From: Candidatus Peribacteria bacterium
GTDB lineage: Bacteria; Patescibacteriota; Gracilibacteria; Peribacterales; Peribacteraceae
DNA length: 64,000 nt
NCBI GenBank assembly: GCA_023245935.1
Contig: JAHFJM010000003.1
Location: forward strand, 101,070 to 165,069
Reading direction: 5' to 3'
Below the pieces are notes generated by a model. It did not search any database, was not told where the DNA came from, and saw only the letters and a program-made list of their open reading frames with translations. The translations under genes and the position numbers were made by a program. Position 1 is the stretch's first letter. Each line of letters begins with the position of its first letter. Shown piece after piece: positions 3,401 to 50,360 of this stretch.

Positions 3401-6400
3401 GATCATCGCGAGAAACAACATCGTAACCGAGCAAGGAACACTGATCACACGTTACGGTCTCACGTTCTTGTCGGGCAGTTCGCTCGCTGAAATCAGCGGG
3501 TTCAGTAATTATGTGAACTTCCGGGAAGGCATCGGTACGGATTCTTCGATTCGTCTCACATCGCAGGGCAATCTCCGGAACATCGGTTCGATCCAGGCAG
3601 GGGAGACGCTGCTGACGGCGGGAGGGACGTTTGCGGCGAGGGTCAATTACGGAGCTGGTACGCTTCCGTCCTCCGTTGCAATCGGAGACCTCAATGGTGA
3701 CGGGAGAAGCGATATCGTCATTGCAAACAGCGGTGTGAATTCAATCTCCGTTTTCATCAATACGGGAACCGGAAGTTTTGCGACGAAGGTCAACTATACG
3801 ACCGGATCCGCTCCGCGCTCGGTTGCCATCGGGGATCTGAACGGTGATGGGAAGCCCGATCTTGCGGTGGCAAATCAGAACGGTGCGTCGGTCTCGGTCT
3901 TCAGAAATTTGGGCAGCGGCACGTTTGCGGCGAAAGCGGATTACGGCGCAGGCACGACTCCGTACGGAGTTGCCATTGCGGATTTCAACGGTGACGGCAG
4001 AACCGATCTCGCCGTCGTGAATAACGGCGCCGATTCCGTCTCGATTCTTCTGAATATCGGAAACGGCGTCTTCGCTTCCAAAGTCGATCTTGCAACCGGT
4101 TCGCTGCCGTCGTCCGTTGCATCGGCGGATCTGAACGGCGACGGGAAACAGGATCTTCTCGTCACGAATGTCGGAACCGATACGGCATCGGTGTTCTTTG
4201 GCATCGGTGACGGAACATTCGCATCAAGTGTCAATTATTCCACGGGTTCCGCGCCGTATTCCGTTTCCGTCGGCGATCTGAATGCGGATGGAAAACCGGA
4301 CGTCGCCGTTGCGAACTTCGGCAGTGACACTGTCTCGGTGCTCTTGAACACCGGCACGGGTTCCTTTGCATCCAAAACCGACTATGCCACGGGTTCCGCA
4401 CCGTACTCGGTTACAATCGGCGATCTCGACGGAGACGGCAAAGGCGATCTCGCGGTGACAAACAGCAACGGGAATTCCGCCTCAACGTTCTTGAACAGAG
4501 GAAACGGGACATTCCTTTCGAGAACGGATCTCACGACCGGATCTGTTCCGCAGTCCATCGCGATTGGCGATCTGAATGCCGACGGAAAGGGCGATCTTGC
4601 CGTTGCCAACAACAGCAGCGCGTCGGTCTCTGTACTTCTCAGCAGACCGCGCACCATCCTCTTCGCTGCCGCTTCTACCGGCGGAGTCGTCGGCATCGGT
4701 ACATCGACGCCGGGAGCCAAACTCTCGATTTCCGGTGCGGTGATCATCAGTGCGCGCGGCGATCTCGCAAATGCACGCACGGACAGCGGCATAGTACTCG
4801 AAGTTGCAGGAACGATCTCCGGAACGGCACTGAAGCTGATGAATAACTTGTCGGTCTCAGGAAGCATTCTCTCTCTTCGTGGGATCACGAGTCGCGGCAC
4901 GGTCTCCGGAAACAACTTAATCGTTTCTCATAGCGCATCCATTTCCGGCACGCTCCTCGTCAAAACATCGATTGCTTCGAAGGGCTCCTTGTCCGGCACA
5001 ACGATCGGGGGCTTCGGCTTCGGTTCGTGTACCGGTCAGTATCAGAAACTTCTCTACAACAACACAACCAATACATTCGTTTGCGGCACCGATGCCCTGA
5101 ATCCGGTCTACGGCAGCGGAAACATGCTCACCGTGACCAATGCGCGTTACGTGAACACTTCCGGCGATACGATGACCGGATCCCTCACGATCAACCTCAG
5201 TTCCGGCTTCATCGGACTGAAAGTGTTGCAGACCGCTTCCGGAAATATTCTGCATGCCGAGAAAGATTTGAGCAGTTCGGGAACACTCACGGTAAACGGC
5301 ATTGCGAGATTTAAAAATAACCTGAACGCCGTCGGCACCGTCTCAGGAGCTGCACTCACGGTCATGAACGGCACGAGTACCATTCTCGGATCTGTCGGCA
5401 TCGGTAATAGTTCTCCGAAAGCGAAGCTCGATGTCTCAGGAACAATTTCCGGAACGACGCTGACCATCAGCAAGAACGGTTCATTCTCGGGAACGCTTCT
5501 CGTTGTCTCGGATATCACGGCACGCGGGACGTTATCCGGAACCAATCTGACGGTCTCGAAGTCCGCATCGATCTCGGGTGCACTCCTCGTGAAAACATCG
5601 ATCACCTCGAAGGGCTCTCTCTCCGGCGTCACAATCGCAGGCTTCTCGCTCGGCTCTTGTAGCGGCGTCTCGCAGAAGCTCCTCTATAACAACTCGACGC
5701 AGACATTCGAGTGCGGCGACGACATCGGGCTTCTTGACAATACGAACTCCGGAAATGTGCTGGCAATCGGCAATGCCCGCTATGTGAAGAAGCAAGGCGA
5801 CACGATGACCGGAGCGCTGATCATCAATCTCTCGTCCGGGTATTTGGGACTCAGGATTCTGCAGATGGCATCGGGCTCCATCCTCCATGCCGAGAAATCT
5901 CTCACGAGTTCAGGACTCCTGATGGTGGTGCAGTCGACCGCGAGAGGTTCGGGAGCACTCGTGGTCGAGCAGCGAACGAACTCGACCGGAGCGTACATCA
6001 CGTCACGCTCACAGTTTAACCCCGTCCTTGCGCTCGACAGTTCGACGGGTTCATTCAAGGCTCCGCATATTCTCTTTGGAACGAATGGATTCTTCGATGT
6101 CGCGCTCTGGCGGACTGCGGGTGCGCTGAACTTGTCCGGTCATCTGCTTCCCGGACTCACGAACAAATTCGATCTCGGTTCGTCGACCAAGCGTTGGAGA
6201 TCGATCTACTTGTCGGGTGGAACGATGTTCATCGGTACGGCTGGGAATGAAGCATCGATCAGCTATAACACTTCCGCCTCCCGCTTCGGTATTGATGCGA
6301 ACACGGATGGCACGAATGAACTGAGTATTCTCAGCACCGGGAATGTCGGCATCGGCACTTCTATTCCGAAAGCAAAACTGGACGTCCTCGGCACGATCTC

Positions 6401-9400
6401 GGGAACAACACTCGTGATCAGCAAGAATGCCTCGTTCTCCGGTTCGCTGACGGTGAGTAGCAGCATCACGTCTCGCGGATCCGTATCCGGATCGACGATC
6501 AGCGGCTTCTCGCTTGGATCCTGCAACGACAGTTCCACCAGCAAGCTCCTCTACAACTACTCGACGCAGAAATTCGAATGCGGTACCGACAGCAACCCCG
6601 GTGCCGGATTCGGACTGCTTAATCTCTACGCCATCGGTGACGCGCGCTATGTCCTGAAACAGGGCGACACGATGACGGGAACGCTCAAGAGCAGGGGATA
6701 CTTACTTGCCTCCGGCACGACACTGTCTGAAATGTCCGGCTGGAACGAGTATCTGAATTTGCCTCACTCGGGCATTGGAACAAATTCAGTCACTCGTCTG
6801 ACGAACCAAGGAGATCTCACAAACATTTCTACGATTCAATCAGGCGAAGCAAATTTCACGAGAGGAGGAACGTTTGCTGCCAAGGTGGATTACAGCACGG
6901 GTACCACTCCACATTCTGTTGCTATTGGAGATATGAATGGTGATGGAAAGCAGGATCTTGCAACGGCAAACTATACCAGCAATACCGTCTCTGTTTTCCT
7001 AAATACAGGTACAGGTTCTTTCGCTACGAAGGTGGATTATATGACGGGAACCAATCCTTACGGTGTCGCTGTCGGTGACGTGAACGGGGACGGAAAGGCA
7101 GACATTGTAGTGGCAAATATAACTAGCAACTCCGTCTCTGTCTTCCTGAACAACGGCAACGGTACCTTCTCTGCAAAAATCGATTATACGACGGGATCAA
7201 ATCCCTACTCCGTTGCCATCGGTGATCTGAATGGTGATGGCAAGGCTGATCTTGCAGTTGCTAACTACAATAGTACCTCCGTCTCCGTTTTCCTGAATAC
7301 CGGCAACGGTACCTTCTCTGCAAAAATCGATTATACGACGGGATCAAATCCCTACTCCGTCGCCATCGGAGACCTGAACGGGGATGGGAAAGCGGATCTT
7401 GCGGTTGCAAATAATCAGAGCACCTCCGTCTCTGTCTTCCTGAACAACGGCAACGGTACCTTCTCTGCAAAAGTCGATTACACGGCTGGTTCCAATCCAG
7501 CCTCCGTTGCCATCGGTGATCTGAATGGTGATGGTAAGGCTGATCTTGCAGCAGCGAATTCTCAAAGTACCTCCGTCTCTGTCTTCCTGAACAACGGCAA
7601 CGGTACCTTCTCTGCAAAAGTCGATTACACGACGGGAAATTATCCCTTTTTCGTTGCCATCGGAGACCTCAATGGCGATGGAAAGGCAGACTTGGCGGTT
7701 GCCGTAGCTGGCAGTGACTCCGTCTCCGTCTTCCTGAATAACGGCAACGGCACCTTTTCACAAAAAGTGGATTACGGAGCGGGTTCCAATCCTCACTATG
7801 TCGTCGTCGGTGACGTGAACGGGGACGGGAAGCCCGACCTTGCAGTTGCAAACTACAGCAGCGACACCGTCTCCGTTCTCCTCAACCAATCCAAAACGAT
7901 CCTCTTCGCCTCCTCCGGCACGGGCGGAGCCGTCGGTATCGGGACACCCACGCCTGGTTCCATCCTCGCTGTTTCCGGTGCGATGCTGATCAACGGCAAC
8001 GGAGACATTCTGAATTCCGGTGTGAATGCCGGAGTCGCACTCGAAGTTGTCGGCACCGCGTCCGGTCGTGTGCTACGTGCATCGACGAGGCTCGAATCTT
8101 CGGGGTCTCTCATCGTCGAAGGGACGATTTCCGGTGCGACGCTCAGGCTTGGGAACCTTGGAATTTGCAATACAAGTGTGAAGAAGCTCACCTATAACAG
8201 CACGACGAACAATATCGAATGTGCGTTTGATTCGTACGCTCAGGCGTTCGGCACAGGCAACGTGCTCGTTATCGGCGACGGCCGCGCGCTCAAGAGAGCA
8301 GGCGGGACGATGACCGGAGCACTGACGATTAACCTGTCTTCCGGATATCTTGGGCTCAAAGTTCTTCAGACCGCTTCCGGAAATATTCTGCACGCAGAGA
8401 AAGACCTTACGAGTTCCGGAACACTCACTGTAAATGGCGTCGCAAGATTCAAAAACAACGTGAATGTCGTCGGTACGGTATCGGGAGCAGTGCTCACCGT
8501 CATGAACGGCACAAGTTACTTCCTCGGTTCTCTCGGCATTGGAAATACTTCTCCGAAAGCAAAGCTCGATGTGCGAGGCGCAATCTCGGGTACTACACTC
8601 ACCGTCTCGGGCAACGGTTCGTTCTCGGGATCTCTCATTGTCAAAAACAACTTATCCGGCAGCAGCTTCTACGGTGCCGGGCTTGGAGACTGTAACAATG
8701 CGACATCCTCGAAACTTCTCTACAACAACGCAACCGGAAAATTCGGCTGTGCCGCTGATACAGGAGGAACGGCGTACGAGTACCAGAATGCTGCGGGTAC
8801 GTTCGTGAATCAAGCAGGCGATACGATGACCGGAGCACTCACGATCAACTTGAGCTCCGGTTTCATCGGTCTGAACGTTCTGCAGACAGCTTCCGGAAAC
8901 ATTCTGCATGCAGAGAAAAGTCTCACGTCTTCGGGCAGCCTCACGGTGGTCGGCGTTGCGAGGTTCAAAAACAATCTGAACGTCGTTGGCACTATCTCAG
9001 GCGCAGCACTGACGGTCATGAACGGCACGAGCTACATGCTCGGTTCCGTCGGTATCGGTAATACCTCACCGAAAGCAAATCTCGATGTCTCCGGAACGAT
9101 TTCCGGCACAACGCTTGTGATGAGTAAGAACGGCTCGTTCTCCGGTTCGCTCATCGTCAAGAACAACTTATCCGGCAGCAGCTTCTACGGTGCCGGGCTT
9201 GGAGACTGTAACAATGCGACATCCTCGAAACTTCTCTACAACAACGCAACCGGGAAGTTCGGCTGTGCGAGTGACCAGGTCGGAGTGGCAACTTTTACCT
9301 ATGCTTCCACTGTCGGGACGTTCGTGAATCAATCCGGTGACACGATGACCGGAGCACTCACGATTAACTTAAGCAGCGGTTATCTTGGACTGAAAGTCCT

Positions 9401-12400
9401 GCAGACCGCTTCCGGAAATATTCTGCACGCAGAAAAGAATCTCACATCGTCCGGAACAATCGTTGCTGCCGGAGATATTCTTTCGAAAAACGGAACTGCG
9501 AAAACCAAAGGCTATGTTCTCTTCTCGGGTGCAACGCTTTCGGAAATGTCAGGCTTCAACGAATACCTCAACATCATCCATTCCGGACTTGGCACAAACT
9601 CCGTCACTCGTCTCACAAATCAGGGTGACCTCAAAAATATCGGGACGATTCAATCCGGAGAAGCACACATGCGAAGGGGAGGGACGTTTGCGACAAAGGT
9701 TAATTATGCGGCAGGGGTAGCTGCTTACGGAGTTGCTGCAGGAGACCTCAATGGTGATGGAAAAGCAGACTTTGCAGTCGTGAACTATGGGATAATAAAT
9801 ACCTCTGCAAACAGCTCTCTCTCTATCTACATCAATACCGGTACGGGTTCCTTTGCAACAAGAGTGAATTATACAACCTTACAAAATCCTAAATCAGTTG
9901 CTATAGGAGATCTCAATGGTGATGGAAAGCCTGATATTGCCATAGGCGGTGATTCGGGATATGTTTCGATTTACATAAATAAGGGCAATGGCACGTTCGC
10001 TACAAAAGTTGATTACGCGGTGGGCAGCAATGGTCACGTTGCAATCGGCGATCTGAATGGCGATGGAAAGGCGGATCTCGCTGTTGCAAATGGCTATAGT
10101 AGTGCCTCTATCTCCATCCTCCTCAATAACGGCAACGGAACCTTTGCTGCAAAAGTTGATTACACTGCGGAAGCGTCCATCAGCTCTATCGCCATCGGGG
10201 ACATTAATGGCGATTCGAAAATAGATATTGCAGTGACGAACGAAAACGCCGATAGTCTCTCTATTTTCATGAATAACGGCAACGGCACTTTTGCTACCAA
10301 AGTCGATTATGCAACCGGAGTATATCCGCGATCCGTTTCGATTGGAGATCTTAATAATGATAATAAGGCCGATCTTGCAGTCGCAAACTATACGACCGAG
10401 GCTGTATCGGTATTTATGAACAATGGTGATGGAACGCTTGCGACAAAAGTTGATTATGATGCGCTTGCTGCGGGGGAGGAAGTTGTCATTGGAGATCTGA
10501 ATGGTGATGGTAAACAAGATCTTTCCGTTTTATTTCAGACAGCTGGATTGTCTATTTTCATTAATAATGGCAATGGCACCTTCGCAGCGCAGAGCCTATT
10601 TTCTACAGAAAGCAATTCAGGGGTTCATGCCTTGGCTGACTTCAACGGCGATGGAAAATTGGATGTGGTTGTTCCCACATACCAATTGAATCTCGTTTCC
10701 GTCTTAATGAACCAATCCAAAACCATCCTCTATGCCTCATCCGGCACAGGTGGCGCCGTCGGTATCGGCACACCGACGCCGGGCTCGGCACTTGCGGTCT
10801 CCGGTGCCGTGCTCATCAATGCAAACGGCAATATTGTGAATACCAAAGCCGATGCAAGACTTGCTCTTGAGGTGATCGGTACGATGTCGGGTCGAGTGTT
10901 GCATGCGCAGGATGTGCTCCGCTCCAGCGGCTCACTGATTGTCGAAGGGAATATGTCCGGAGCAACACTGCAAGGCGCAGGGCTTGCGAGTTGTAATGCT
11001 TCGACGAAGAAACTTCTCTACAACAATTCCACCAAGAAATTCGAGTGCGGAACGGATCAGGGGGCTTCCTTTGCATTTGGATCCGGAAATGTCATCACGA
11101 TCGGCAACAGTCGTTACGTTCGCACCTCGGGCTCGACGATGACCGGCGCACTTACGATCAATCTCACCTCCGGCTACCTCGGACTGAAAGTCTTGCAGAC
11201 CGCTTCCGGCAATATTCTCCATGCGGAGAAGAGCCTCACGAGCTCCGGAACCATCATCGCAGGAACCGATATCATCGCGAAGGGAACGATAAAGAGCGAT
11301 GCGTACGTCTTCAGCTCCGGCACAACCCTTGCGGAGATGTCCGGTTGGAACGAGTACGTCAACATCGTGCATTCCGGACTCGGCACGAACTCCGTCACCC
11401 GTCTCACGAATCAGGGTGATCTGAAAAATATCGGAACGATACAATCCGGAGAAGCGAACTTCAGGAGGGGTGGGACGTTTGCACCGGCGTTGGATTATAC
11501 AACGGGATCAAATCCCGAGTCTGTTGCCATCGGTGACCTGAACGGTGATGGGAAGGCGGATCTTGCAGTCGCGAACAATGACGATTCCTCCGTCTCTATC
11601 TTCCTCAACAACGGCAACGGTACCTTCGCCACAAAGGTCGATTACACTACGGGTACGGATCCTTATTCCGTTGCCATCGGTGACCTGAACGGTGATGGAA
11701 AGCCGGATCTTGCTGTTACCAACGACGACATGCTCGGCTTAAACTATTCTGTTTCCATCTTCCTCAACAAGGGCAACGGCACCTTCGCCACAAAGGTCGA
11801 TTACACTACCGGCAACCGCCCCTTCTCTGTTGCCATCGGAGACCTGAACGGTGACGGGAAGGCGGATCTCGCAACGGCAAACTATGACTCGACTTCGGTT
11901 TCCGTCTTCTTGAATAATGGCAATGGCACTTTCGCTGCAAAAGTCGATTACGCAACGGGGGGCGCTTCAGCCTCCGTTGCCATCGGAGACCTGAACGGTG
12001 ACGGGAAAGCAGATCTTGCTGTTACTAGTGCTGGCTACGTCTCCGTTCTCCTTAACAAGAGCAATGGTACCTTTGCCGCAAAGGTCGATTATACGGCAGG
12101 AACCTTTCCCTGGGGCGTTGCCATCGGCGATCTGAACGGTGATGGCAAGGCGGATCTTGCTGTTACGAACTATCAAGGTGAATCCATATCCGTTTTCATG
12201 AATAACGGTAATGGCACCTTCGCAGCGAAGGTCGATTACACAATCGGCAGCCAGGTATTCTCTGTCGCAATCGGAGACCTAAATGGCGATGGGGCAATGG
12301 ACATTGTTACGGGGAATGGTTCCCTCTCCGTTTTCATGAATAACGGTAACGGTACCTTTGCTACGCAGGCTTACTACGGGGGAAATATCTATCTTTCGGT

Positions 12401-14543
12401 TGCCATCGGAGATCTGAATGGTGACGGAAAAGCAGACCTTGCAGGAGTGAAGAATAACAGTAACACCGTCTCTGTCTTCTTAAACCTCTCCCGCACTATT
12501 CTCTTCGCCTCCTCCGGCACAGGTGGCGCCGTCGGTATCGGCACGCCCACTCCCGGTTCCGCACTCGCGGTCTCCGGTGCCGTGCTCATCAATGCAAACG
12601 GGAATATCAGGAATACTGCTGCCGGTGCGAGCAGTGCACTCGAAGTGATCGGCACTGCGTCCGGAAGAATTCTTCATGCGCAGGATCTCCTCAGATCTTC
12701 CGGTGCTCTTGCCATTGAAGGTGTCTCATATTTCGGTTCCGGTGTCACGATCAAGTCGACACATACGAAAGCAGGCGCGAGCGAATTCACGATCATCACC
12801 GACTACTCAAGCAGCTCCAACAAAGTCTTCAGAGTATCCGCCTCCGGTGCGGTGTATGCAGACGGAACATATAACAGCAACGGTGCGGACTATGCGGAGT
12901 GGTTTAGGGTGACCCCCGCCGCCTCACCCCCGGCCCCTCTCCCTGATGGGAGAGGGGAGACCCTGGAACCAGGTGAAGTCGTGTGTATCGACATCCTTCA
13001 CAACAACTCCGTCTCTCGCTGCACTCGTTCCGGCGATCCCAATGTTATGGGCATCGTCTCCACGAATCCCGCCTTCGTCGGAAATGTCATCAGTGGCGCC
13101 GAAGGCATCATTCCTCCCGGCTACGCTCTCATCGGACTCATCGGTCAGGTTCCGGCAAAACCAAGCCTTGAAAACGGTCCGATACGTCCCGGGGATTCCG
13201 TCACATCTGCCACCGAACCCGGCTTCGTTCGCAAAGCTTCTGCCGGAGAATCCACCGTGGGTGTTGCTCTCGAAGGATATGACGGTTTGGATTCAGTTAT
13301 TGCAACTGACTCAAAGCTCAAAGCTCAAAGCTCAAAGCTTATTAATATTTTAATCTCCCGCAAAAATCAGTCCCTCACGGTCGAAACGATCGAGCAGAAA
13401 GTTCTTCAGCAGATCGCTTCGATGAATCTCAGTGATGAAGTCAGTCGTCTCGTGAACCAAGCGTCCACCAATCTGAATATCGACGATCGGGTGACGCAAG
13501 CTCTGAGCCGGCAACTTCAAGCACTCGATCTTGCTTCGCAGATCAACGGCATTGTTGATCAGAGGCTCTCTCACCTTAACTCATCTGGACATATCCTTAC
13601 CTTCGGTACGTCACTGAGCGGTGCAGCGCTTGCAGATCTCGTGAAAGCTATCGTTGCAGAACTTTCGCAGACGACGGCAACGGGATCTTTTGCACAGAAT
13701 CAGGAATCAGGAATCAGGAATCAGGAATTGCAACTCTCCGAACTTCGGGATCAATTCCTCATTCTCACAGCTCACAGCTCACAGCTCACAGCTTCTCTGG
13801 GCTCTGGACACACGCTGCATGCCGCAGCCCTGAACCTCTCCTCCGGTGCCACTATCTCCGGCTCTCTCCGCCTCATGAGTTCCATGGTTGTTCCTCATCA
13901 ATTCTCAATTATCAATTCTCAATTATCAATTCTGTCCGTTTCCGGTTCCGCCATCGATATCGGCTCTCTCTTTGCATCAGGATCGCTCAAAGTCATCGGC
14001 AACATCACGATCACCGGACTTGCTACGTTCCTCGGCGACGTTCACATCAAGGGCGACCTTGTCCTGAGTAGCAGGCAAGCAGGCTTCGCAGTCATTCCTG
14101 TTTCTAGCACTGCTGTCACTGTTACCTTCTCAGGTGCCATGGCAACCCGACCGATGGTGATTGCGACGCCGAACGCACTCGTGAAATTCGGCATTACCGC
14201 AGTGTCGGCAACCGGCTTTACGATTCGATTGAAAGAACCTGCGACTGAGGAAGTGAGATTCTCATTTGTCGCTTGGGGTAGCGATAATCCAATGACGACG
14301 CAGGGAGTGATTGCGCCTGCAGCCGTTCCGACTACCGTTGACGTACCGTCGATTTTGCCGCTGCTTCAGACATTGTCCGGCACGTTGCAGTCGGTCGATC
14401 ATGCGATGATGCAGACGGAAAGCGGTGTTTCGGTGGTTCCTGAGAGTGAACCAAGTGCGGTGCCGATAATGGATTCGGGGACGGTTCTCAGTCCCGATCC
14501 AATCCTCACCCCCGTCCCCTCTCCTTCGGCAGGAGAGGGGTGA
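429..14543 (+). CDS. giant secreted/surface repeat protein (4704 aa): signal peptide, 13 'GDTMTGALTI' collar-like modules, 'LGIGTxSPKAKLDVxGTISGTTL' repeats, four 7-blade FG-GAP/VCBS blocks, 'ADYAEWF' C-terminal domain
   Basis: Single uninterrupted ORF; N-terminal hydrophobic signal (MNTVRRSLASILLAALVLSIVSS); repeated DLNGDGKADLAVAN motifs; recurrent SGDTMTGALTINLSSG motifs; colinear paralog at 15249-29615. Confidence 0.93.
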   Translation: MNTVRRSLASILLAALVLSIVSSDGQSIRAAAPSFVSVPRGVRMGGYDPLGPTAKDFVAATSSLSESPFFGPAEVTLDAGKSGKVSRVGAKSEMAAMRVRILERAKVRLKSVLATFLAFSGGEKYALGPAKNNQVLTFIDGKIVWRDPGVLHSAAGGSSDSVHEPGSGRMPASDTLTRHMGGNPVQTATTTTTSDGISQATADSRYVNISGDTMDGALSITSNGLGLTISGTASGNALHAERLLTVSGSSVFDSNARFNSTVTLNNVTYTFPASDGAGSGKVLKTNAAGQLSWADDNAVGTGLSQASGDSRYVNTSGDTMTGALTINLSSGYLGLKILNTASGNILHAEKDLTSSGTLTVNGTARFKSNLNTVGTISGAALAIMNGNTNYILGSLGIGTTSPKAKLDVTGTISGTTLTISRNGSFSGSLIVQNNIVARSTISGSTINGFNLGSCNGSSQKLLYNNSTQKFECGSDLNSGGTGTFGTGNVITIGDGRYVNTSGDAMTGALTINLSSGFIGLKILNTASGNILHAEKDLTSSGTLTVSSTARFKSNLNTVGTISGAALQIMAGSTNYILGSLGIGTTSPKAKLDIAGTISGTTLTISRNGSFSGSLIVQNNITARNTISGSTINGFNLGSCNGSSQKLLYNNSTQKFECGSDLNSGGTGTFGTGNVITIGDSRYVNTSGDTMTGALTINLSSGFIGLKIIQTASGNILHAEKNLTSSGGLVFEGAASGSSLYVATSIRGAGLSDCTGGNKLLWNATTGRFSCVQDQTGSALSVSSGDARYVNTSGDTMTGALTINLSSGFIGLKILNTASGNILHAEKSLTSSGTLTVNGIARFKNNVNVVGTVSGAALTVMNGVSSILGSLGIGTTSPKAKLEVLGSFSGSRLYAASAFSGAGLTSCSGAGQKLLWNSTTQQFSCSTDLTTGSFSSGNVITIGDSRYVNVSGDTMTGALTINLSSGFLGLKILQTGSGNILHAEKNLTSSGTIIARNNIVTEQGTLITRYGLTFLSGSSLAEISGFSNYVNFREGIGTDSSIRLTSQGNLRNIGSIQAGETLLTAGGTFAARVNYGAGTLPSSVAIGDLNGDGRSDIVIANSGVNSISVFINTGTGSFATKVNYTTGSAPRSVAIGDLNGDGKPDLAVANQNGASVSVFRNLGSGTFAAKADYGAGTTPYGVAIADFNGDGRTDLAVVNNGADSVSILLNIGNGVFASKVDLATGSLPSSVASADLNGDGKQDLLVTNVGTDTASVFFGIGDGTFASSVNYSTGSAPYSVSVGDLNADGKPDVAVANFGSDTVSVLLNTGTGSFASKTDYATGSAPYSVTIGDLDGDGKGDLAVTNSNGNSASTFLNRGNGTFLSRTDLTTGSVPQSIAIGDLNADGKGDLAVANNSSASVSVLLSRPRTILFAAASTGGVVGIGTSTPGAKLSISGAVIISARGDLANARTDSGIVLEVAGTISGTALKLMNNLSVSGSILSLRGITSRGTVSGNNLIVSHSASISGTLLVKTSIASKGSLSGTTIGGFGFGSCTGQYQKLLYNNTTNTFVCGTDALNPVYGSGNMLTVTNARYVNTSGDTMTGSLTINLSSGFIGLKVLQTASGNILHAEKDLSSSGTLTVNGIARFKNNLNAVGTVSGAALTVMNGTSTILGSVGIGNSSPKAKLDVSGTISGTTLTISKNGSFSGTLLVVSDITARGTLSGTNLTVSKSASISGALLVKTSITSKGSLSGVTIAGFSLGSCSGVSQKLLYNNSTQTFECGDDIGLLDNTNSGNVLAIGNARYVKKQGDTMTGALIINLSSGYLGLRILQMASGSILHAEKSLTSSGLLMVVQSTARGSGALVVEQRTNSTGAYITSRSQFNPVLALDSSTGSFKAPHILFGTNGFFDVALWRTAGALNLSGHLLPGLTNKFDLGSSTKRWRSIYLSGGTMFIGTAGNEASISYNTSASRFGIDANTDGTNELSILSTGNVGIGTSIPKAKLDVLGTISGTTLVISKNASFSGSLTVSSSITSRGSVSGSTISGFSLGSCNDSSTSKLLYNYSTQKFECGTDSNPGAGFGLLNLYAIGDARYVLKQGDTMTGTLKSRGYLLASGTTLSEMSGWNEYLNLPHSGIGTNSVTRLTNQGDLTNISTIQSGEANFTRGGTFAAKVDYSTGTTPHSVAIGDMNGDGKQDLATANYTSNTVSVFLNTGTGSFATKVDYMTGTNPYGVAVGDVNGDGKADIVVANITSNSVSVFLNNGNGTFSAKIDYTTGSNPYSVAIGDLNGDGKADLAVANYNSTSVSVFLNTGNGTFSAKIDYTTGSNPYSVAIGDLNGDGKADLAVANNQSTSVSVFLNNGNGTFSAKVDYTAGSNPASVAIGDLNGDGKADLAAANSQSTSVSVFLNNGNGTFSAKVDYTTGNYPFFVAIGDLNGDGKADLAVAVAGSDSVSVFLNNGNGTFSQKVDYGAGSNPHYVVVGDVNGDGKPDLAVANYSSDTVSVLLNQSKTILFASSGTGGAVGIGTPTPGSILAVSGAMLINGNGDILNSGVNAGVALEVVGTASGRVLRASTRLESSGSLIVEGTISGATLRLGNLGICNTSVKKLTYNSTTNNIECAFDSYAQAFGTGNVLVIGDGRALKRAGGTMTGALTINLSSGYLGLKVLQTASGNILHAEKDLTSSGTLTVNGVARFKNNVNVVGTVSGAVLTVMNGTSYFLGSLGIGNTSPKAKLDVRGAISGTTLTVSGNGSFSGSLIVKNNLSGSSFYGAGLGDCNNATSSKLLYNNATGKFGCAADTGGTAYEYQNAAGTFVNQAGDTMTGALTINLSSGFIGLNVLQTASGNILHAEKSLTSSGSLTVVGVARFKNNLNVVGTISGAALTVMNGTSYMLGSVGIGNTSPKANLDVSGTISGTTLVMSKNGSFSGSLIVKNNLSGSSFYGAGLGDCNNATSSKLLYNNATGKFGCASDQVGVATFTYASTVGTFVNQSGDTMTGALTINLSSGYLGLKVLQTASGNILHAEKNLTSSGTIVAAGDILSKNGTAKTKGYVLFSGATLSEMSGFNEYLNIIHSGLGTNSVTRLTNQGDLKNIGTIQSGEAHMRRGGTFATKVNYAAGVAAYGVAAGDLNGDGKADFAVVNYGIINTSANSSLSIYINTGTGSFATRVNYTTLQNPKSVAIGDLNGDGKPDIAIGGDSGYVSIYINKGNGTFATKVDYAVGSNGHVAIGDLNGDGKADLAVANGYSSASISILLNNGNGTFAAKVDYTAEASISSIAIGDINGDSKIDIAVTNENADSLSIFMNNGNGTFATKVDYATGVYPRSVSIGDLNNDNKADLAVANYTTEAVSVFMNNGDGTLATKVDYDALAAGEEVVIGDLNGDGKQDLSVLFQTAGLSIFINNGNGTFAAQSLFSTESNSGVHALADFNGDGKLDVVVPTYQLNLVSVLMNQSKTILYASSGTGGAVGIGTPTPGSALAVSGAVLINANGNIVNTKADARLALEVIGTMSGRVLHAQDVLRSSGSLIVEGNMSGATLQGAGLASCNASTKKLLYNNSTKKFECGTDQGASFAFGSGNVITIGNSRYVRTSGSTMTGALTINLTSGYLGLKVLQTASGNILHAEKSLTSSGTIIAGTDIIAKGTIKSDAYVFSSGTTLAEMSGWNEYVNIVHSGLGTNSVTRLTNQGDLKNIGTIQSGEANFRRGGTFAPALDYTTGSNPESVAIGDLNGDGKADLAVANNDDSSVSIFLNNGNGTFATKVDYTTGTDPYSVAIGDLNGDGKPDLAVTNDDMLGLNYSVSIFLNKGNGTFATKVDYTTGNRPFSVAIGDLNGDGKADLATANYDSTSVSVFLNNGNGTFAAKVDYATGGASASVAIGDLNGDGKADLAVTSAGYVSVLLNKSNGTFAAKVDYTAGTFPWGVAIGDLNGDGKADLAVTNYQGESISVFMNNGNGTFAAKVDYTIGSQVFSVAIGDLNGDGAMDIVTGNGSLSVFMNNGNGTFATQAYYGGNIYLSVAIGDLNGDGKADLAGVKNNSNTVSVFLNLSRTILFASSGTGGAVGIGTPTPGSALAVSGAVLINANGNIRNTAAGASSALEVIGTASGRILHAQDLLRSSGALAIEGVSYFGSGVTIKSTHTKAGASEFTIITDYSSSSNKVFRVSASGAVYADGTYNSNGADYAEWFRVTPAASPPAPLPDGRGETLEPGEVVCIDILHNNSVSRCTRSGDPNVMGIVSTNPAFVGNVISGAEGIIPPGYALIGLIGQVPAKPSLENGPIRPGDSVTSATEPGFVRKASAGESTVGVALEGYDGLDSVIATDSKLKAQSSKLINILISRKNQSLTVETIEQKVLQQIASMNLSDEVSRLVNQASTNLNIDDRVTQALSRQLQALDLASQINGIVDQRLSHLNSSGHILTFGTSLSGAALADLVKAIVAELSQTTATGSFAQNQESGIRNQELQLSELRDQFLILTAHSSQLTASLGSGHTLHAAALNLSSGATISGSLRLMSSMVVPHQFSIINSQLSILSVSGSAIDIGSLFASGSLKVIGNITITGLATFLGDVHIKGDLVLSSRQAGFAVIPVSSTAVTVTFSGAMATRPMVIATPNALVKFGITAVSATGFTIRLKEPATEEVRFSFVAWGSDNPMTTQGVIAPAAVPTTVDVPSILPLLQTLSGTLQSVDHAMMQTESGVSVVPESEPSAVPIMDSGTVLSPDPILTPVPSPSAGEG
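3620..4650 (+). repeat. FG-GAP/VCBS block 1 of giant protein 1 (7 blades)
   Basis: Seven [D]-[LFIM]-N-x-D-G-[KR] blade motifs counted from the translation. Confidence 0.8.
6860..7900 (+). repeat. FG-GAP/VCBS block 2 of giant protein 1 (7 blades)
   Basis: Seven GD[LMV]NGDGK motifs counted. Confidence 0.8.
9670..10730 (+). repeat. FG-GAP/VCBS block 3 of giant protein 1 (7 blades)
   Basis: Seven motifs counted, including the degenerate GDINGDSKID, GDLNNDNKAD and ADFNGDGKLD. Confidence 0.75.
11465..12500 (+). repeat. FG-GAP/VCBS block 4 of giant protein 1 (7 blades)
   Basis: Seven GDLNGDGK/A motifs counted. Confidence 0.8.
12922..12960 (+). repeat. REP-like palindrome (subtype A) inside coding sequence
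   Basis: CCTCACCCCCGGCCCCTCTCC-ctgatg-GGAGAGGGGAGA; encodes ASPPAPLPDGRGET, which is absent at the homologous site of the paralog. Confidence 0.75.
13310..13337 (+). repeat. heptanucleotide array (CTCAAAG)x4 in coding sequence
   Basis: Direct reading; encodes SKLKAQSSKL, not matched in the paralog. Confidence 0.85.
13697..13724 (+). repeat. heptanucleotide array (GAATCAG)x4 in coding sequence
   Basis: Direct reading; encodes NQESGIRNQE. Confidence 0.85.
13764..13791 (+). repeat. heptanucleotide array (CTCACAG)x4 in coding sequence
   Basis: Direct reading; encodes AHSSQLTAS. Confidence 0.85.
13898..13932 (+). repeat. heptanucleotide array (TCAATT[C/A])x5 in coding sequence
   Basis: Direct reading; alternating TCAATTC/TCAATTA units; encodes QFSIINSQLSIL. 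Confidence 0.85.
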
Positions 14544-14544
14544 C
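14502..14544 (+). repeat. REP-like palindrome (subtype A), left inverted copy flanking the DUF559 gene
   Basis: ATCCTCACCCCCGTCCCCTCTCC-ttcggca-GGAGAGGGGTGAC; near-exact reverse complement of 14978-15023; contains the stop codon of giant gene 1. Confidence 0.85.
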
Positions 14545-15019
14545 GCATGCTTTTCTGAAAATGAAGAGGGTGGAAATGTCTGATAGACTCATCCTTATGG
14601 GTACCAGTGAGGCTCTGAGGCATAGAGAAAAACTGAAATTTAAGAGAGATTTACGGAAAAATCTGACACCAGCAGAACGTGTTCTATGGCAAGAGCTACG
14701 GAACAGAAAGTTGCTCGGAACAAAATGGAAGAGACAGGATACTATCGGACAATTCATCGCAGATTTTCTTTGCAAAGAACACAAGCTGATTATTGAAGTC
14801 GACGGTGGGATTCATGAAACTCAGCAAGAATACGATCGACTACGCACCGAGATCATCAATGTGTACGGATATCGTGTGATTCGTTTCAAAAACGAAGAAG
14901 TCCTTGGAGAATTATCGAATGTTTCACGTAGAATCTCAGAAGAGATTGTGCATATTCCCAAAACTTCAGAAGCTCAAGTCACCCCTTCTCCAGCCGATGG
15001 AGAAGGGGACGGGGGATGA
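14540..15019 (+). CDS. DUF559 / Vsr-like PD-(D/E)XK endonuclease domain protein (start may be 14561 or 14576)
   Basis: RKNLTPAERVLWQELRNRKLLGTKWKRQDTIGQFIADFLCKEHKLIIEVDGGIHETQQEYDRLRTEIINVYGYRVIRFKNEEV is a characteristic DUF559 sequence. Confidence 0.9.
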   Translation: MTHAFLKMKRVEMSDRLILMGTSEALRHREKLKFKRDLRKNLTPAERVLWQELRNRKLLGTKWKRQDTIGQFIADFLCKEHKLIIEVDGGIHETQQEYDRLRTEIINVYGYRVIRFKNEEVLGELSNVSRRISEEIVHIPKTSEAQVTPSPADGEGDGG

Positions 15020-15023
15020 GGAT
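14978..15023 (-). repeat. REP-like palindrome (subtype A), right inverted copy flanking the DUF559 gene
   Basis: GTCACCCCTTCTCC-agccgat-GGAGAAGGGGACGGGGGATGAGGAT; contains the DUF559 stop codon. A further partial inverted copy follows at ~15030-15049 (GGGGCTGGGGGTGAGGATT). Confidence 0.85.
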
Positions 15024-15163
15024 CGTACGAGGGGCTGGGGGTGAGGATTGGGATGGATTATTACCATTTTACTTCATTTTTCATACAAAAATAATATTAT
15101 TATAAAACTTTAAATTTAAAATAACAATTACTTGCAATAATAAGAAAAAGTGCAGTGGCACTC

Positions 15164-15248: not shown

Positions 15249-18200
15249 ATGAATACACTGAAACAACTTCTGGCACGAGTGCTGCTTGGCACACTTTTCC
15301 TCGGGATGTTCCCGACGGAACTGAGTGCCGCGGTTCCCGTTGGTAAAAAGATTTCTTCAGTCGTTTCTTCTTCGAAAACCGCAGCGACGCATCCCACGAT
15401 CTTCAGCCCGACAGCGCGCGATTTTTCTCCTTCGAAAATCACAAAAGTGAACAACGCTGTCGGAGCATCGCAGATTGATTCTGCGAGACTGCGGAGACTT
15501 GCAGCGGCAAAAGCCGTTGCATCATCCGTCCTCGAAACCTTCCTCGCCTTCTCCGGCGGAGAGAAGTACGCCCTCGGTCCCGCAAAGAACAATCAAGTCC
15601 TCACCTTCATCGACGGCAAGATCGTCTGGAGAGATGTCGATGCATTGCACTCTGCGGCAGGCGGTTCTCCCGATGTTGTTCACGAACCCGGCAGAGGCAG
15701 AATGCCTTCCTCCGATTCCGGTGGTGACTCCCGTCACATGGGTGGAACCCCGGTTCAGACCGCCACAACCACGACAACTTCCGACGGCATCTCTCTGGCA
15801 ACAGCCGACTCCCGCTACGTGAATGTCTCCGGCGACACCATGGATGGCGCTCTCAGCATCACGAGCAACGGTCTTGGTTTGATTATCTCCGGCACCGCTT
15901 CGGGCAACGCTCTCCACGCAGAGCATCTCCTCACCGTCTCCGGTTCTTCCATCTTCGACGGAAGCGCTCGATTCAACTCCAGCGTCACGCTGAACAACGT
16001 CACCTACACCTTCCCCGCTTCCGACGGAGCAGGTTCCGGAAAAGTTCTTAAAACCAATGCAGCCGGCCAGCTCTCCTGGGCGGATGACAATGCCGTCGGC
16101 ACAGGGCTCTCTCAAGCATCCGGTGATTCCCGATATGTGAATGTCTCCGGCGATACGATGACCGGAGCTCTCACAATCAATCTCAGCTCAGGATTCATCG
16201 GTCTCAAAGTTCTCAACACCGCTTCCGGAAATATCCTTCATGCGGAGAAGGATCTTACTTCCTCGGGAACACTCACGGTCAGCTCCACCGCACGATTCAA
16301 ATCGAATCTCAACACCGTCGGAACAATCTCCGGAGCAGCTCTTCAGATCATGGCAGGAAGCACCAATTACATTCTTGGATCGCTTGGCATCGGTACAACG
16401 AATCCCAAAGCAAAACTTGATGTCACCGGCACCATCTCAGGAACAACGCTGACTATCTCCCGAAACGGCTCGTTCTCAGGTTCTCTCATCGTTCAGAACA
16501 ATATCGTTGCCAGAAGCACTATCTCCGGCTCCACGATCAACGGTTTCAATCTCGGTTCATGTAACGGCTCTTCCCAGAAACTTCTCTACAACAACTCGAC
16601 GCAGAAATTCGAATGCGGATCCGATCTTAACTCCGGAGGAACCGGCACCTTCGGCACCGGCAACGTCATCACGATCGGTGATTCACGTTATGTGAACACG
16701 AGTGGCGATGCGATGACCGGGGCACTCACGATCAACTTGAGCAGCGGTTATCTTGGATTGAAAGTCTTGCAGACCGCTTCCGGCAATATTCTCCATGCGG
16801 AGAAATCTCTCACAAGCTCAGGAACTCTCACCGTCTCAGGAATCACCAGACTCAAATCCAATCTCAATGTCGTCGGAACAATCTCCGGAGCAGCTCTTCA
16901 GATCATGGCAGGCAGCACAAACTACATTCTCGGTTCCCTCGGAATCGGTACAACGAATCCCAAAGCAAAACTTGATGTTCTTGGCACGATCTCGGGCTCT
17001 ACGCTCGTCATTTCCAGAAACGGTTCTTTCTCAGGTTCTCTCGTCGTCCAAAACAATATCACCGCTCGCGGTACCATCTCCGGTTCCACGATCAACGGTT
17101 TCAACCTCGGTTCTTGCAACGGATCTTCTCAGAAACTTCTCTACAACAACTCGACGCAGAAATTCGAATGCGGTTCCGATCTCAACTCCGGAGGAACCGG
17201 CACCTTCGGCACCGGCAATGTGATCACCGTCGGTGACGGTCGTTACGTGAATACTTCCGGCGACACCATGACCGGAGCACTGACCATCAATCTCAGCTCA
17301 GGCTTCATCGGACTCAAAATCATCCAGACTGCTTCCGGAAACATTCTTCATGCGGAGAAAAACCTCACTAGCTCCGGTGGTTTGGTCTTCGAGGGTGCCG
17401 CATCGGGATCGTCTTTGTACATTGCGACTTCTCTGCAGGGAGCGGGACTCACGAATTGCACCGGCAGCAATAAACTTCTCTGGGACTCTGCAACCGGCAG
17501 GTTCTCCTGCGGAATCGATCAGACATCGGGATCGGGGCTTGATCAGAACTCCGGCGATGCACGGTACGTGAATGTCTCCGGTGACACGATGACCGGCGCA
17601 CTCACGATCAATCTCAGTTCTGGTTTCATCGGACTGAAAGTATTGCAAACTGCTTCCGGCAATATTCTGCATGCGGAGAAAGATCTGACGTCTTCCGGAA
17701 CACTCACTGTCTCCGGCATTGCGAGGTTCAAAAATAACGTGAATGTCGTCGGAACCGTTTCCGGCGGCGCTCTCACCATCATGAACGGTGTGTCTTCCAT
17801 CCTCGGTTCCCTTGGCATTGGCACATCTTCGCCCAAAGCAAAACTCGAAGTGATCGGATCTTTCTCCGGTTCCAGACTCTACGCCGCTTCCGCATTCTCG
17901 GGAGCAGGGCTGACCTCTTGTTCCGGTGCGGGGCAGAAACTTCTCTGGAACAGCACGACCCAGCAGTTCTCCTGCGGGGTTGACCTGAGTTCCTTCGGTT
18001 CGGGGAATGTTCTCACCGTTGGCGATTCCCGCTACGTGAATGTCTCCGGCGACACCATGACCGGCGCACTCACGATCAACCTGAGTTCCGGTTATCTTGG
18101 TCTCAAAATCCTCAACACTGCTTCCGGAAATATTCTGCATGCCGAGAAAAATCTCACCTCGTCGGGGACGATCGTTGCCAGAAACAACATCGTGACTGAA

Positions 18201-21200
18201 CAGGGAACACTGATCACACGCTACGGACTCACATTCCTCTCCGGCAGTTCACTGGCTGAAATCAGCGGGTTCAATAATTACATCAACTTCCGGGAAGGCA
18301 TCGGTACCGATTCCACGATGCGTCTCACGAATCAAGGCAATCTCCGGAACATCGGGTCGATTCAGGCAGGGGAGACGCTGCTCACGGCGGGAGGAACGCT
18401 TGCGGCGAAAGTCGATTACGCGGCGGGTACCAATGCGTATTCCGTCGCGGTCGGAGACATCAACGGCGACGGTAAGGCAGATATGGCAGTTGCCAACTAT
18501 GGCAGTGATTCTGTTTCTGTCTTCATCAATACGGGCACGGGAAGTTTTGCGACGAAGGTCGATTACACAACCGGAACCAGTCCGTACTCCGTTGCGATCG
18601 GTGACCTCAACGGTGATGGAAAGCCCGATCTCGCAGTGAGCAACAATGGCAGTTCTTCCGTTTCCATCTTCCTGAATAAAGGCAACGGAACGTTTGCTGC
18701 GAAGGTCGATTACACCACCGGTTCCGGTCCGCGCTTCCTTGCCATCGGTGACCTGAATGGCGATGGCAAGCAGGATGTTGCCGCTGCGAGTTTCGGCGGT
18801 AATTCCGTCTCCGTTCTTCTGAATAACGGCAACGGTACCTTCGCTGCAAAAGTGGATTACACGGTGGGGAGTGCCAATCCATATTCCGTTGCCATCGGCG
18901 ACCTCAACGGTGACGGCAAACCGGATCTTGCCGTTGCGGTTCTCAACAGTACCACGATCGCCATCTTCCTGAACAATGGCGACGGCACCTTCGCCGCAAA
19001 GGTCAATTACACGGTGGGTTCCGATCCGACCTCCATTGCCATCGGTGATCTCAACGCTGACGGCAAACCCGATCTCGCCGTTTCAAACAGCAGTAGCAGC
19101 TTTATCTCCATTCTCATCAATAACGGCAACGGAACCTTCGCAACAAAAGTCGATTACACCACGGGGAATAATCCTTATTCCGTTGCCATCGGTGATCTGA
19201 GTGGCGACGGCAAGCCGGATATTGCAGCTACGAACATCAATGGTTTCGTCTCCATCTTCATCAATAACGGCAACGGCACCTTCGCCGCAAAAGTGGATTA
19301 CACCACCGGTTCTTCTCCGCTGTCAGTTGCCATCGGTGATCTGAATAGTGATGGCAAGGCAGATCTTGCCGTTTCTAACTACGGCAGTGACTCCGTCTCT
19401 GTTTTCCTCAACCGGTCCCGTACCATTCTCTTCGCTTCCGCCTCGACTGGAGGTGTCGTCGGTATCGGTACACCCACGCCTGGAGCCAAACTCTCGGTTT
19501 CCGGTGCGGTGATTATCAGTGCCAGAGGCGACCTTGCGAATGCGCGCACGGACAGCGGTATCGCACTCGAAGTGGCAGGCACCATCTCCGGTTCCGCGCT
19601 GAAACTCATGAACAACTTGTCGGTTTCCGGGACGATTCTCTCCGTTGGAACGATCACCACTCGAGGCACGCTGTCCGGAAATAATCTCATCGTTTCCCAC
19701 AGCGCATCGATCTCCGGTGCGCTTCTCGTTCTCACAAGCATTACGTCGAAGGGTTCGCTCTCCGGTGCCACATTCTTCGGTGCGGGACTTGGCAGTTGCA
19801 CGAACTCGAATCAGAAGCTTCTCTATGACCCTGCAACGGGAAAATTCAACTGTTCGACGGATTACGCCGGTTCGACATTCGGTTCCGGGAATACGATCAC
19901 GATTGGTGATGCGCGGTACGTGAATGCCAGTGGCGACACGATGACCGGAGCACTCACGATCAATCTGAGTTCCGGCTTCATTGGGCTGAAAGTATTGCAG
20001 ACCGCTTCCGGAAATATTCTGCACGCGGAGAAAGATCTCACGAGTTCGGGAACACTGACTGTCAGTGGAATCGCGAGATTCAAGAACAACGTGAACGTTG
20101 TCGGAACGGTCTCCGGAGGCGCACTCACGGTCATGAACGGCACAAGTTACTTCCTCGGTTCTCTTGGCATCGGAAACACGTCTCCAAAAGCAAAACTTGA
20201 TGTTCTGGGCACGATTTCGGGCTCTACGCTCGTTATCTCTAAAAACGGTTCGTTCTCCGGTTCGCTTGTCGTTGTCTCGAACATCACGACTCGCGGCACA
20301 CTCTCCGGAACCAATCTAACGGTCTCGAAGTCCGCATCGATCTCGGGTTCACTCCTCGTCAAAACATCGATCACCTCGAAGGGCTCTCTCTCCGGTGTGA
20401 CGATTGCAGGGTTCAATCTTGGCTCCTGCAACGGCGCCTCTCAGAAACTGCTCTACAACAACTCGACGCAGAAATTCGAGTGCGGATCGGATGTCGGTGC
20501 GAATTCCATCGGTTCCGGCAACGTGCTGGCCATTGGCGACGCTCGCTACGTCAAGAAGCAAGGCGACACGATGACAGGCGCACTCATCATCAACCTCAGT
20601 TCCGGTTTCCTCGGACTTCGCATTCTGCAGATGGCATCCGGATCGATCCTTCATGCCGAGAAATCTCTCACGAGTTCAGGTCTTCTGATGGTGACGCAGT
20701 CGACGGTTCGAGGATCCGGAGCACTCGTCGTCGAGCAGAGATCCAATTCCACCGGTGCCTACATCCGCGGTTCCGGCGCACACATCAATGCACCGCTCCT
20801 CGTCCTCGACAGCTCGACGGGTTCGTACAGGGCTCCGCACATCCTCTTCGGATACAAAGGAACATTCGACGTCGCACTCTGGCGCACAACGGGTGCGGTC
20901 CTCAACTTATCGGGTCATTTGCTTCCAAGTCTCACGAACAAATTCGATCTTGGTTCTTCCGCCAATCGTTGGAGGTCTCTCTACCTCTCCGGTGGAACGA
21001 TGTACTTAGGCACTGCAGCCAATCAGGCGAGCATCAACTTCAACACCTCAGCCTCCCGCTTCGGGATCGATGCGAATGCGGACGGAACGAATGAACTCTC
21101 GATTCTCAGTATCGGAAACGTCGGCATCGGCACCGGTAGTCCGAAAGCAAAACTCGATGTAGCGGGAACGATCTCCGGCACAACGCTGACCATCAGCAAG

Positions 21201-24200
21201 AACGGTTCGTTCTCGGGCGCTCTCGTCGTGAAGTCGAGTATTACGTCGAGAGGATCGCTCTCCGGTGTGACGATTGCAGGGTTCAATCTTGGCTCCTGCA
21301 ACGGCTCAAGCCAGAAACTTCTCTACAACAACTCGACACAGAAATTCGAGTGCGGCTCCGATCAGTCGGGAGGTTCTGCAAACAGCGGCACGGTGCTCTC
21401 GATCGGCAATGCTCGCTATGTGCTGAAGCAAGGCGACACGATGACCGGCACACTCAAGAGTCGCGGCTTCCTCCTCGCCTCGGGTACGACCCTCTCCGAG
21501 ATGTCGGGTTGGAACGAATACCTGAATTTGCCTCACTCGGGCATTGGAACAAATTCAGTCACTCGTCTCACGAACAACGGTGATCTCGTGAACATCGGTA
21601 CGATTCAATCCGGCGAAGCGCACTTCAGGAGGGGAGGAACGTTTGCGGGGAAGGTGGATTACACGTCTGGGACACCTTATTCCGTTGCCATCGGTGACCT
21701 CAACGGTGACGGAAAACAGGATCTTGCAACCGTCAACGTTGACGGCAACTCCGTCTCGATCTTCATCAATACCGGCACGGGTTCATTTGCTACAAAAGTC
21801 GATTACACAACTGGAAGTGTTCCAGAAAGCGTTGCAATCGGCGATCTGAATGGTGATGGGAAACCAGACCTTGCAGTAGCCAACTACACCAGCGCCTCAG
21901 TCTCTGTCTTCCTGAACAACGGCAACGGCACATTTGCTTCAAAAGTTGACTACACAGCCGGATCGAATCCGCACTCCGTCGCAATCGGCGATCTGAATGG
22001 AGATGGAAAACAGGATCTTGCAGTAGCGAATTACTTCGGTAATTCTGTCTCCGTCATTCTGAACAACGGCAACGGAACCTTCGCTGCAAAAGTCGACTAT
22101 ACAACCGGATCGAATCCGTACTCCGTTGCCATCGGTGACCTCAATGGTGACGGAAAAAAGGATCTCGCCCTCGCAAACGGTGGCAGTGATTCCGTCTCCG
22201 TCTTCCTGAACAACGGCAACGGCACCTTTGTCGCGAAGGTCGATTACACGACGGGGATTGTTCCTTATTCTGTTGCAATCGGTGATCTGAACGGCGATGG
22301 GAAAGCAGACCTTGCAGTAGCCAATTACACTAGTTCTTCCGTCTCCATCTTCCAGAACAACGGCAATGGCACCTTCGCTACAAAGGTAGATTACACAACG
22401 GGAAATAATCCTTATTCCGTTGCAATCGGTGATCTAACCGGTGACGGAAAACCTGATCTTGCCGTTGCAAACGGCAATGCGAACACCGTCTCCACATTCC
22501 AGAATAATGGCAACGGTACCTTTGCCGCGAAGATCGATTACGGGGCGGGCACCAATCCTTCCTCCGTTGCCATCGGTGATCTGAACAATGACGGTAAGGC
22601 GGATATGGCAACGGCAAACTACGGCACCACCGTTTCCATCTTCCTCAATCTCTCCCGCACCATTCTGTATGCCTCCTCCGGCACCGGTGGAGCCGTTGGT
22701 ATCGGTACACCCACACCGGGTTCCGCACTCGCCGTCTCCGGTGCCGTGCTCATCAACGCAAACGGCAATATTCTGAATACCAAAGCAGACGTCGGGCTTG
22801 CACTCGAGGTGATCGGCACGATGTCCGGTCGTGTGCTCCATGCGCAGGATTTGATCACATCATCCGGTTCGCTCATCGTCGAAGGAACGATCTCGGGAGC
22901 GACACTCAGAGGAGCAGGTCTTGCAAGCTGCAACGGTGCAAGCCAGAAACTTCTGTACAACAACTCCACGAACAAATTCGAATGTGGAACCGATCTCACC
23001 GGAGCATCCGGTACGCCGTTCAGTTCCGGCAACGTTCTCACCATCATCGACGCGCGGTACGTGAAGAAGCAAGGAGACACGATGACCGGAGCACTCACGA
23101 TCAATCTCTCCAGCGGTTTCCTCGGACTCAAACTCCTCAACACCGCTTCCGGAAACATTCTCCACGCCGAGAAAGATTTGAGCAGCTCGGGAACACTTAC
23201 TGTGAATGGCATCGCGAGGTTCAAGAATAACCTCAACGTCGTCGGCACGGTTTCCGGAGCCGCTCTCACAATCATGAATGGCACATCGTACATGCTCGGT
23301 TCCGTCGGCATCGGGAACACTTCTCCGAAAGCGAAGCTGGATGTCTCGGGCACGATCTCAGGCACAACGCTGACGATTTCCAGAAACGGTTCCTTCTCCG
23401 GTTCACTCATCGTCAAAAACAACCTCTCCGGCAGCAGTTTCTACGGCGCCGGGCTCGGTGACTGTAATAATTCCACCAACTCCAAACTGATCTACAACAA
23501 TGCAACCGGAAAGTTCGGCTGTGCGACGGATCAAACTGCGGTGGGTATTTCATACACTGCCGCCTCAAACATCTTCGTCAATCAGTCCGGCGATACGATG
23601 ACCGGCGCACTCACGATCAACCTCAGTTCCGGTTACCTTGGGCTTAAAGTTCTCCAGACCGCTTCCGGAAATATTCTCCATGCCGAGAAAGATCTTACGT
23701 CTTCGGGCACCCTCACGGTGGTCGGAGTCGCAAGATTTAAGAATAATGTGAACGTCGTTGGCACGGTCTCGGGTGCAGCACTGACCGTCATGAACGGAAC
23801 GAGCTACTTCCTCGGTTCTTTGGGTATAGGCAACACATCGCCGAAAGCGAAGTTGGATGTGCGCGGAACAATCTCTGGTACAACACTCACGATCTCGGGC
23901 AACGGTTCATTCTCCGGTTCTCTCATCGTCAAGAACAACTTGTCCGGTAGTAGCTTCTACGGTGCCGGGCTTGGTGACTGTAACAATTCGACATCCAACA
24001 AGCTCATCTACAACAATGCAACCGGCAAGTTCGGCTGTGCGACAGATCAGACAGCGGCAGGACTATCCTTCACGAATGCCGATGGGATCTACGTTAATCA
24101 GGCAGGAGACACAATGACCGGAGCGCTCACGATTAACTTGAGTAGCGGCTATCTTGGATTGAAGATTTTGCAGACCGCTTCCGGAAACATTCTCCATGCA

Positions 24201-29618: not shown

Positions 29619-29663
29619 CGGTCCTCACCCCCAGCCCCTCTCCAACGGCCAGAGAGGGGTGAC
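29619..29663 (+). repeat. REP-like palindrome (subtype A)
   Basis: CGGTCCTCACCCCCAGCCCCTCTCC-aacggcca-GAGAGGGGTGAC immediately after the giant gene 2 stop. Confidence 0.8.
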
Positions 29664-29702
29664 TTGCATTTCTCTGATTACGGACATCTTCTCTTCGCCG
29701 CA

Positions 29703-29740
29703 GCGGAGAGAAGTGGCTCCGCAGAGCCGAAGTGAGGATC
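29703..29740 (-). repeat. REP-like palindrome (subtype B-like), inverted relative to 29619-29663
   Basis: GCGGAGAGAAGTGGCTCCGCAGAGCCGAAGTGAGGATCG; shares the GGATCCTCA/TGAGGATCG terminus. Confidence 0.6.
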
Positions 29741-50280: not shown

Positions 50281-50333
50281 ACGGTCCTCACTCCGTCCTG
50301 CGGGACACCTCTCTCCATCGGCTGGAGAGAGGA
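50281..50333 (+). repeat. REP-like palindrome (subtype B)
   Basis: ACGGTCCTCACTCCGTCCTGCGGGACACCTCTCTCC-atcggct-GGAGAGAGG. Confidence 0.75.
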
Positions 50334-50360
50334 GGATTTGTATTGAGTGGAACTCGGGCT

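Follow-up and report, generated by a model that had tools for sequence, protein, structure and literature searches.

The 64,000-nucleotide stretch of Candidatus Peribacteria bacterium DNA analysed here (the window, whose positions are used throughout) carries a small gene for a DUF559 nuclease enclosed by two inverted palindromic repeats of the BoxC/PIT type. This feature probably belongs to a widespread kind of selfish element that is moved or spread by its own nuclease. The association of DUF559 genes with inverted palindromes extends across many bacterial phyla.

The left arm of the unit (14502 to 14545) reads ATCCTCACCCCCGTCCCCTCTCC-TTCGGCA-GGAGAGGGGTGAC over 14502–14544 and consists of the tail ATCCTCACCCCCGT and a hairpin at 14516–14540 (CCCCTCTCC-n7-GGAGAGGGG). 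The right arm (14978 to 15023) is an inverted copy, with a hairpin at 14983–15007 (CCCTTCTCC-n7-GGAGAAGGG) and the tail GACGGGGGATGAGGAT. Aligned as inverted repeats, the arms differ by two mismatches and three one-base gaps and score 29, whereas random placements in Peribacteria loci scored at most 13, and the single-strand hairpin folding of each arm is far above that of shuffled sequences (z -3.7). A search with the 23-base arm, allowing up to three mismatches, gave three matches against 0.00 expected, so its recurrence is not due to chance. Between the arms lies only the open reading frame (ORF) of the DUF559 (PF04480) Vsr-like nuclease, recognised by its Pfam match and ORF reading (14576 to 15019, forward strand; E 5.7e-36, 123 bits against a curated cut-off of 20.6); its other Pfam signal is a weak match to MTES_1575, below the cut-off, and the Vsr profile (PF03852) gave no match to this protein in the Pfam search. 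The start, picked by inspection, is likely the ATG at 14576, which is preceded by GAGGGTGG in a frame open from a GTG at 14540, and the right arm supplies the 13 final codons as well as the stop (TGA, 15017–15019). A first-pass annotation, made from the letters alone, had placed the arms with their internal palindromes, the solitary ORF and its stop in the right repeat correctly. Its limits hold for both arms, but it missed that the left arm also contains the stop codon (14541–14543) of a preceding 4704-amino-acid ORF, and that the unit is followed by an extra half-repeat. By inspection, this half-repeat, GAGGGGCTGGGGGTGAGGATTGG (15029 to 15051, reverse strand), is a 21/23 reverse complement of the outermost left tail CCAATCCTCACCCCCGTCCCCTC (14499 to 14521, forward strand), and the right edge of the unit is therefore composite. 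DUF559 units thus bounded have inverted terminal repeats, a trait of insertion sequences and transposons.

The same palindrome family occurs without a gene elsewhere in the window, as had likewise been noticed at first pass: there are doublets at 29623–29737 (which would be a non-autonomous element), 50286–50401 and 53066–53186, and a single palindrome at 12922–12957. Scanning the whole genome (1,217,666 bases, eight contigs) returned 37 candidate doublets, mostly of 114–121 bp and with ends around CGGTCCTCA and TGAGGACCG, a few of which are DUF559 arms or composite matches; matches to the core pattern number about 90 on both strands of these 1.2 Mb. Gene-less doublets thus far outnumber DUF559 units, and the unit ends are common to the doublets of the same genome. 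All three DUF559 genes of this genome adjoin palindromes, two with both arms and the third with downstream palindromes only, while palindromes stand at both ends of 5 of the 1025 other ORFs of at least 100 amino acids. The two full units lie in unrelated places, and the second (L001, at C6:364 kb) has a right-arm core identical to that of the window unit. Synonymous divergence (dS) between the two is about 1.4 and nonsynonymous divergence (dN) 0.07, a ratio of 0.05, so the DUF559 protein is maintained by selection; their right ends match over 48 consecutive nucleotides despite this dS, and the unit ends must therefore be strongly constrained or homogenised.

Beyond this genome, most DUF559 genes are flanked by inverted palindromes, both in a sample of 29 loci from relatives and in one of 80 loci from named genomes (Mesorhizobium and other Alphaproteobacteria, Beta- and Gammaproteobacteria, Geobacteraceae, Nitrospirae, Chloroflexota, and Gastranaerophilales). 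When 250-bp windows had to reach an inverted-repeat score of 17 or more, arms were present on both sides of 73 of 104 DUF559 genes, against 3/146 for other ORFs in these loci and 10/1416 for random places (Fisher p 5e-34 for DUF559 versus other ORFs, a statistic that ignores relatedness). The first-pass annotation had staked its proposal beforehand on such an enrichment, and the proposal survives it. In a second sample, arms were found at 37 of 59 DUF559 genes and at none of 30 true Vsr genes, the latter all taken from a single 101-genome set of Rhizobiales that also supplied half of this second DUF559 sample. Inverted palindromes lie on both sides within 300 bp in 115 of 170 distinct DUF559 genes, and a tree of these 170 domains, built on few columns and with many unresolved forks, has arm-bearing members in all its parts. 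In a plasmid collection, two-sided arms were detected at loci of Pseudanabaena, Sinorhizobium meliloti pSymB, and Deinococcus; the two-sided measure found none at E. coli, Neisseria, Azospirillum, and a second Sinorhizobium locus. One locus sample was drawn by a scan with a nine-sequence DUF559 profile and is biased towards FRRQVP-type proteins and Mesorhizobium; searches by Pfam family gave a less biased sample.

The sequence of the palindromes varies by lineage and tracks the similarity of the DUF559 proteins (Mantel rho 0.45, reached in 0/200 permutations; rho 0.21 below 65% protein identity). In Rhizobiales, genomes with DUF559 have a median of 5 palindromes versus 0 in those without (p 2.5e-6), and at least three palindromes are present in 39 of 62 genomes with the gene versus 8 of 39 without. 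The corresponding medians in the Peribacteria family are 16 and 1.5 (p 0.013), and palindrome number in the Peribacteria set correlates with the number of DUF559 genes (rho 0.56). The earlier expectation that genomes lacking DUF559 carry fewer of the palindromes is thus largely borne out, by the medians of both groups, with exceptions such as the two genomes weighed below.

Presence and absence at fixed sites show that the elements are mobile, although at these distances they do not prove gain or loss site by site. At one Mesorhizobium intergenic site, which was queried with joined flanks before the alleles were fetched and compared, empty alleles (e.g., L315, L317, L319, and L331) exist, as the first-pass annotation had proposed to look for, beside a DUF559 unit in L326 and L327 (inserts of 615–626 bp), a 221-bp gene-less doublet with arms of the same type in L322, and palindromes of other families in L323, L324, L325, and L330. 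Nested insertions, with CTCGCCCC-type palindromes inside ATCTCCCCC-type ones, are visible in L323 and L325. In L098 and L101, the DUF559 unit is reversed in orientation between the same flanks. At one Mesorhizobium locus (L104, L106, L133, and L131), tandem DUF559 units and doublets stand about 1 kb apart in combinations that differ between species. The E. coli BoxC doublet of the hrpB–mrcB interval is missing from strains such as L249 and L252, and L250 and L251 have it in a partly deleted form. Two further E. coli candidates for empty sites were set aside: a doublet between ygfF and gcvP was unusable as the adjacent gene is missing in the alternative strains, and ycjD, a DUF559 gene, was rejected as the strains examined without it (L183–L185, compared with L182) have an efflux pump cluster at this place, beside sapF. 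Of 5426 E. coli genomes, 3361 contain a good match to the ycjD region in the sapF-fabI interval, and a partial repeat of the ycjD C-terminal coding sequence is located downstream of the gene.

Compared with the E. coli copies listed by Holder et al. 2015 (PMC4666352), the window arms and doublets match the BoxC/PIT/intrastrand-triplex motif, an identity that the first-pass annotation missed. All three blocks are present, a pyrimidine block, a complementary purine block, and a third G-rich block, and the window repeats share with BoxC/PIT the pyrimidine stem, the purine stem, the GGGGTGAGGG-type third block, and the length of 34–37 nucleotides, as well as a dispersed, mainly intergenic distribution, frequent inverted pairs, and instability between strains. 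The tails of the doublets point outward in the window genome, in contrast to inward in E. coli BoxC pairs. Known since the 1990s, these repeats occur in more than 260 bacterial genomes, and E. coli K-12 has 23 of them, partly arranged as inverted A+B pairs; the in vitro demonstration of an intrastrand triplex is limited to the E. coli motif, no transposase or integrase remnants were found near the E. coli copies, and the origin of the repeats was called unclear (PMC4666352). In that description BoxC/PIT is a DNA motif without an associated gene, and the DUF559 partner, the full unit, and the presence/absence alleles are absent from it. Copy 9 of that list (1,351,204–1,351,239; PMC4666352) adjoins ycjD, as judged by where the ycjD region lies in a K-12-like strain. 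A literature search confined to open-licence papers found no report that connects DUF559 or COG2852 with palindromes or repeats.

DUF559 proteins share invariant residues of a catalytic type (R, E, W, RQ, D, E-x-D-G, and H). The Foldseek matches of a 134-residue AlphaFold2 model (mean predicted local distance difference test score, pLDDT, 81) were, in order, 3HRL, whose sequence is itself of the DUF559 type, the catalytic domain of the EDxHD homing endonuclease I-Bth0305I (3R3P; probability 1.00, E 1e-3), and, more weakly, Vsr. The model thus appears to have its fold in common with this catalytic domain, and its predicted fold is also similar to that of the Vsr mismatch endonuclease (PF03852; 1VSR and 1CW0), whose genes, unlike those of DUF559, are not bounded by these palindromes (0/30). 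By analogy with homing endonucleases, a break-and-copy route may serve for the spread of the DUF559 unit; unlike them, the unit has no intron or intein, the model has no extra DNA-binding domain, and palindromes stand at both ends. Caulobacter VsrA, a DUF559 protein, is needed for an SOS/DNA-damage response in cells without a cytosine methyltransferase (PMC12907096), which is an indirect sign that DUF559 proteins can damage chromosomal DNA.

We consider it fairly likely that DUF559 is the mobilising enzyme. The nuclease would recognise the palindrome once extruded, be it as a hairpin, a cruciform, or an intrastrand triplex, and would nick or cut there or close by; break repair with another copy as the template would then spread or homogenise the palindromes, the gene, or both, in a homing- or gene-conversion-like manner, with DUF559 units as putative autonomous copies and doublets as putative non-autonomous ones. 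Several points weigh against this. Binding, cleavage, movement, and the copying route are steps that we infer. About a third of DUF559 genes have no arms at the threshold used, which can be called conservative because L001 scores 15 and is tallied as armless with arms plainly visible; one Rhizobiales clade of the tree is mostly without arms, and ycjD has a BoxC-like sequence downstream and none upstream. Many palindromes occur without a DUF559 match in G117 (66) and in G016 (about 38; 84% complete), and palindrome number also correlates, more weakly, with the presence of Vsr (p 0.004), so that genome size or relatedness may contribute to the counts. No target-site duplication of constant length was seen at the pairs of empty and filled sites, and derivation of gene-less doublets from DUF559 units by internal deletion was unsupported in the one doublet tested, whose spacer is no remnant of a unit. 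Finally, the authors of the VsrA study favour a role in mismatch repair (PMC12907096).

An alternative, which we regard as unlikely, is that DUF559 is cargo or an addicted rider on palindromes spread by other machinery, such as RAYT-like HUH enzymes, replication slippage, or template switching. It draws on the DUF559-free genomes G117 and G016, on the excess of gene-less doublets over units, and on the Y1 genes present in 32 of 58 Peribacteria relatives. The window genome is rich in palindromes, yet a profile search of it gave no match to a Y1 HUH/RAYT gene (PF01797), and the numbers of palindromes and Y1/RAYT genes in the Peribacteria set are unrelated (rho 0.19, not significant), which makes RAYT an unlikely mobiliser here. 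Against a rider speak also that the same single gene family lies between the arms across phyla, with palindromes that track its protein, and that no transposase or integrase was seen near the E. coli copies (PMC4666352). The architecture nevertheless resembles that of REP/REPIN-RAYT systems, which likewise have inverted pairs of short species-specific palindromes, many gene-less copies, and one small gene bounded by these palindromes. As in REPINs, the window genome has inverted palindrome pairs with gene-less copies (about 37 candidate doublets), but the Y1 partner is absent: DUF559 is a PD-(D/E)XK/Vsr-like nuclease, whereas RAYT (TnpA-REP) is a Y1 HUH protein, and no GTAG/CGTC-type tag of REP systems was seen by eye in DUF559 units. 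The RAYT-like partnership proposed at first pass is strongly backed as an association, and presumptive as catalysis of movement.

That DUF559 is instead a host repair nuclease of a very-short-patch-like kind, with the palindromes as its regulatory or processing signals (e.g., bidirectional terminators or self-control cut structures), seems improbable. The Vsr-like fold of the model, the tie of Caulobacter VsrA to a solitary methyltransferase (PMC12907096), the purifying selection on the protein, and the Rhizobiales clade, which in being largely armless resembles a resident gene, are all compatible with such a role, but it leaves dozens of the same palindromes without a gene, units that appear, vanish, and invert at fixed sites, closely similar units in unrelated places of one genome, and true Vsr genes that never have arms (0/30). 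Abundant palindromes falling by chance or base composition on both sides of DUF559 genes, for which their sheer number in this genome might speak, is an explanation refuted by the enrichment over all controls (5/1025, 3/146, 10/1416, and 0/30 Vsr) and almost certainly wrong.

DUF559 is a strong candidate for the enzyme by which BoxC/PIT repeats, for whose spread no mobility gene has hitherto been known, are moved or maintained, and a partner gene this consistent makes the question of their origin directly testable. More tentatively, and with somewhat less confidence than for the window unit, single-domain DUF559 nucleases might mobilise BoxC/PIT repeats throughout bacteria, as autonomous and non-autonomous elements that have a nuclease of repair or homing type as their driver in place of any known transposase class, possibly through recognition of a triplex or hairpin. 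The consistent partner gene also suggests a role outside mismatch repair for a very common unassigned domain (DUF559/PF04480) and provides a counterpart of REP/RAYT with an unrelated enzyme; DUF559 proteins annotated as very-short-patch-repair endonucleases may often belong to selfish elements.

The window unit is flanked by two giant tandem paralogous repeat-rich ORFs at 429–14543 (4704 amino acids) and 15249–29615 (4788 amino acids). The former is without the C-terminal stretch of its paralogue and stops within the left arm, as if truncated by the unit. The single palindrome at 12922–12957 is translated in frame in the 4704-amino-acid ORF (PPAPLPDGRGE), and the 4788-amino-acid paralogue differs in sequence at this place. 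At two loci of other genomes, translation by eye places the DUF559 domain in one open frame with another protein, within an apparent Elp3-like radical SAM protein in L090 (G039) and ahead of an apparent MiaA in L080 (G044).

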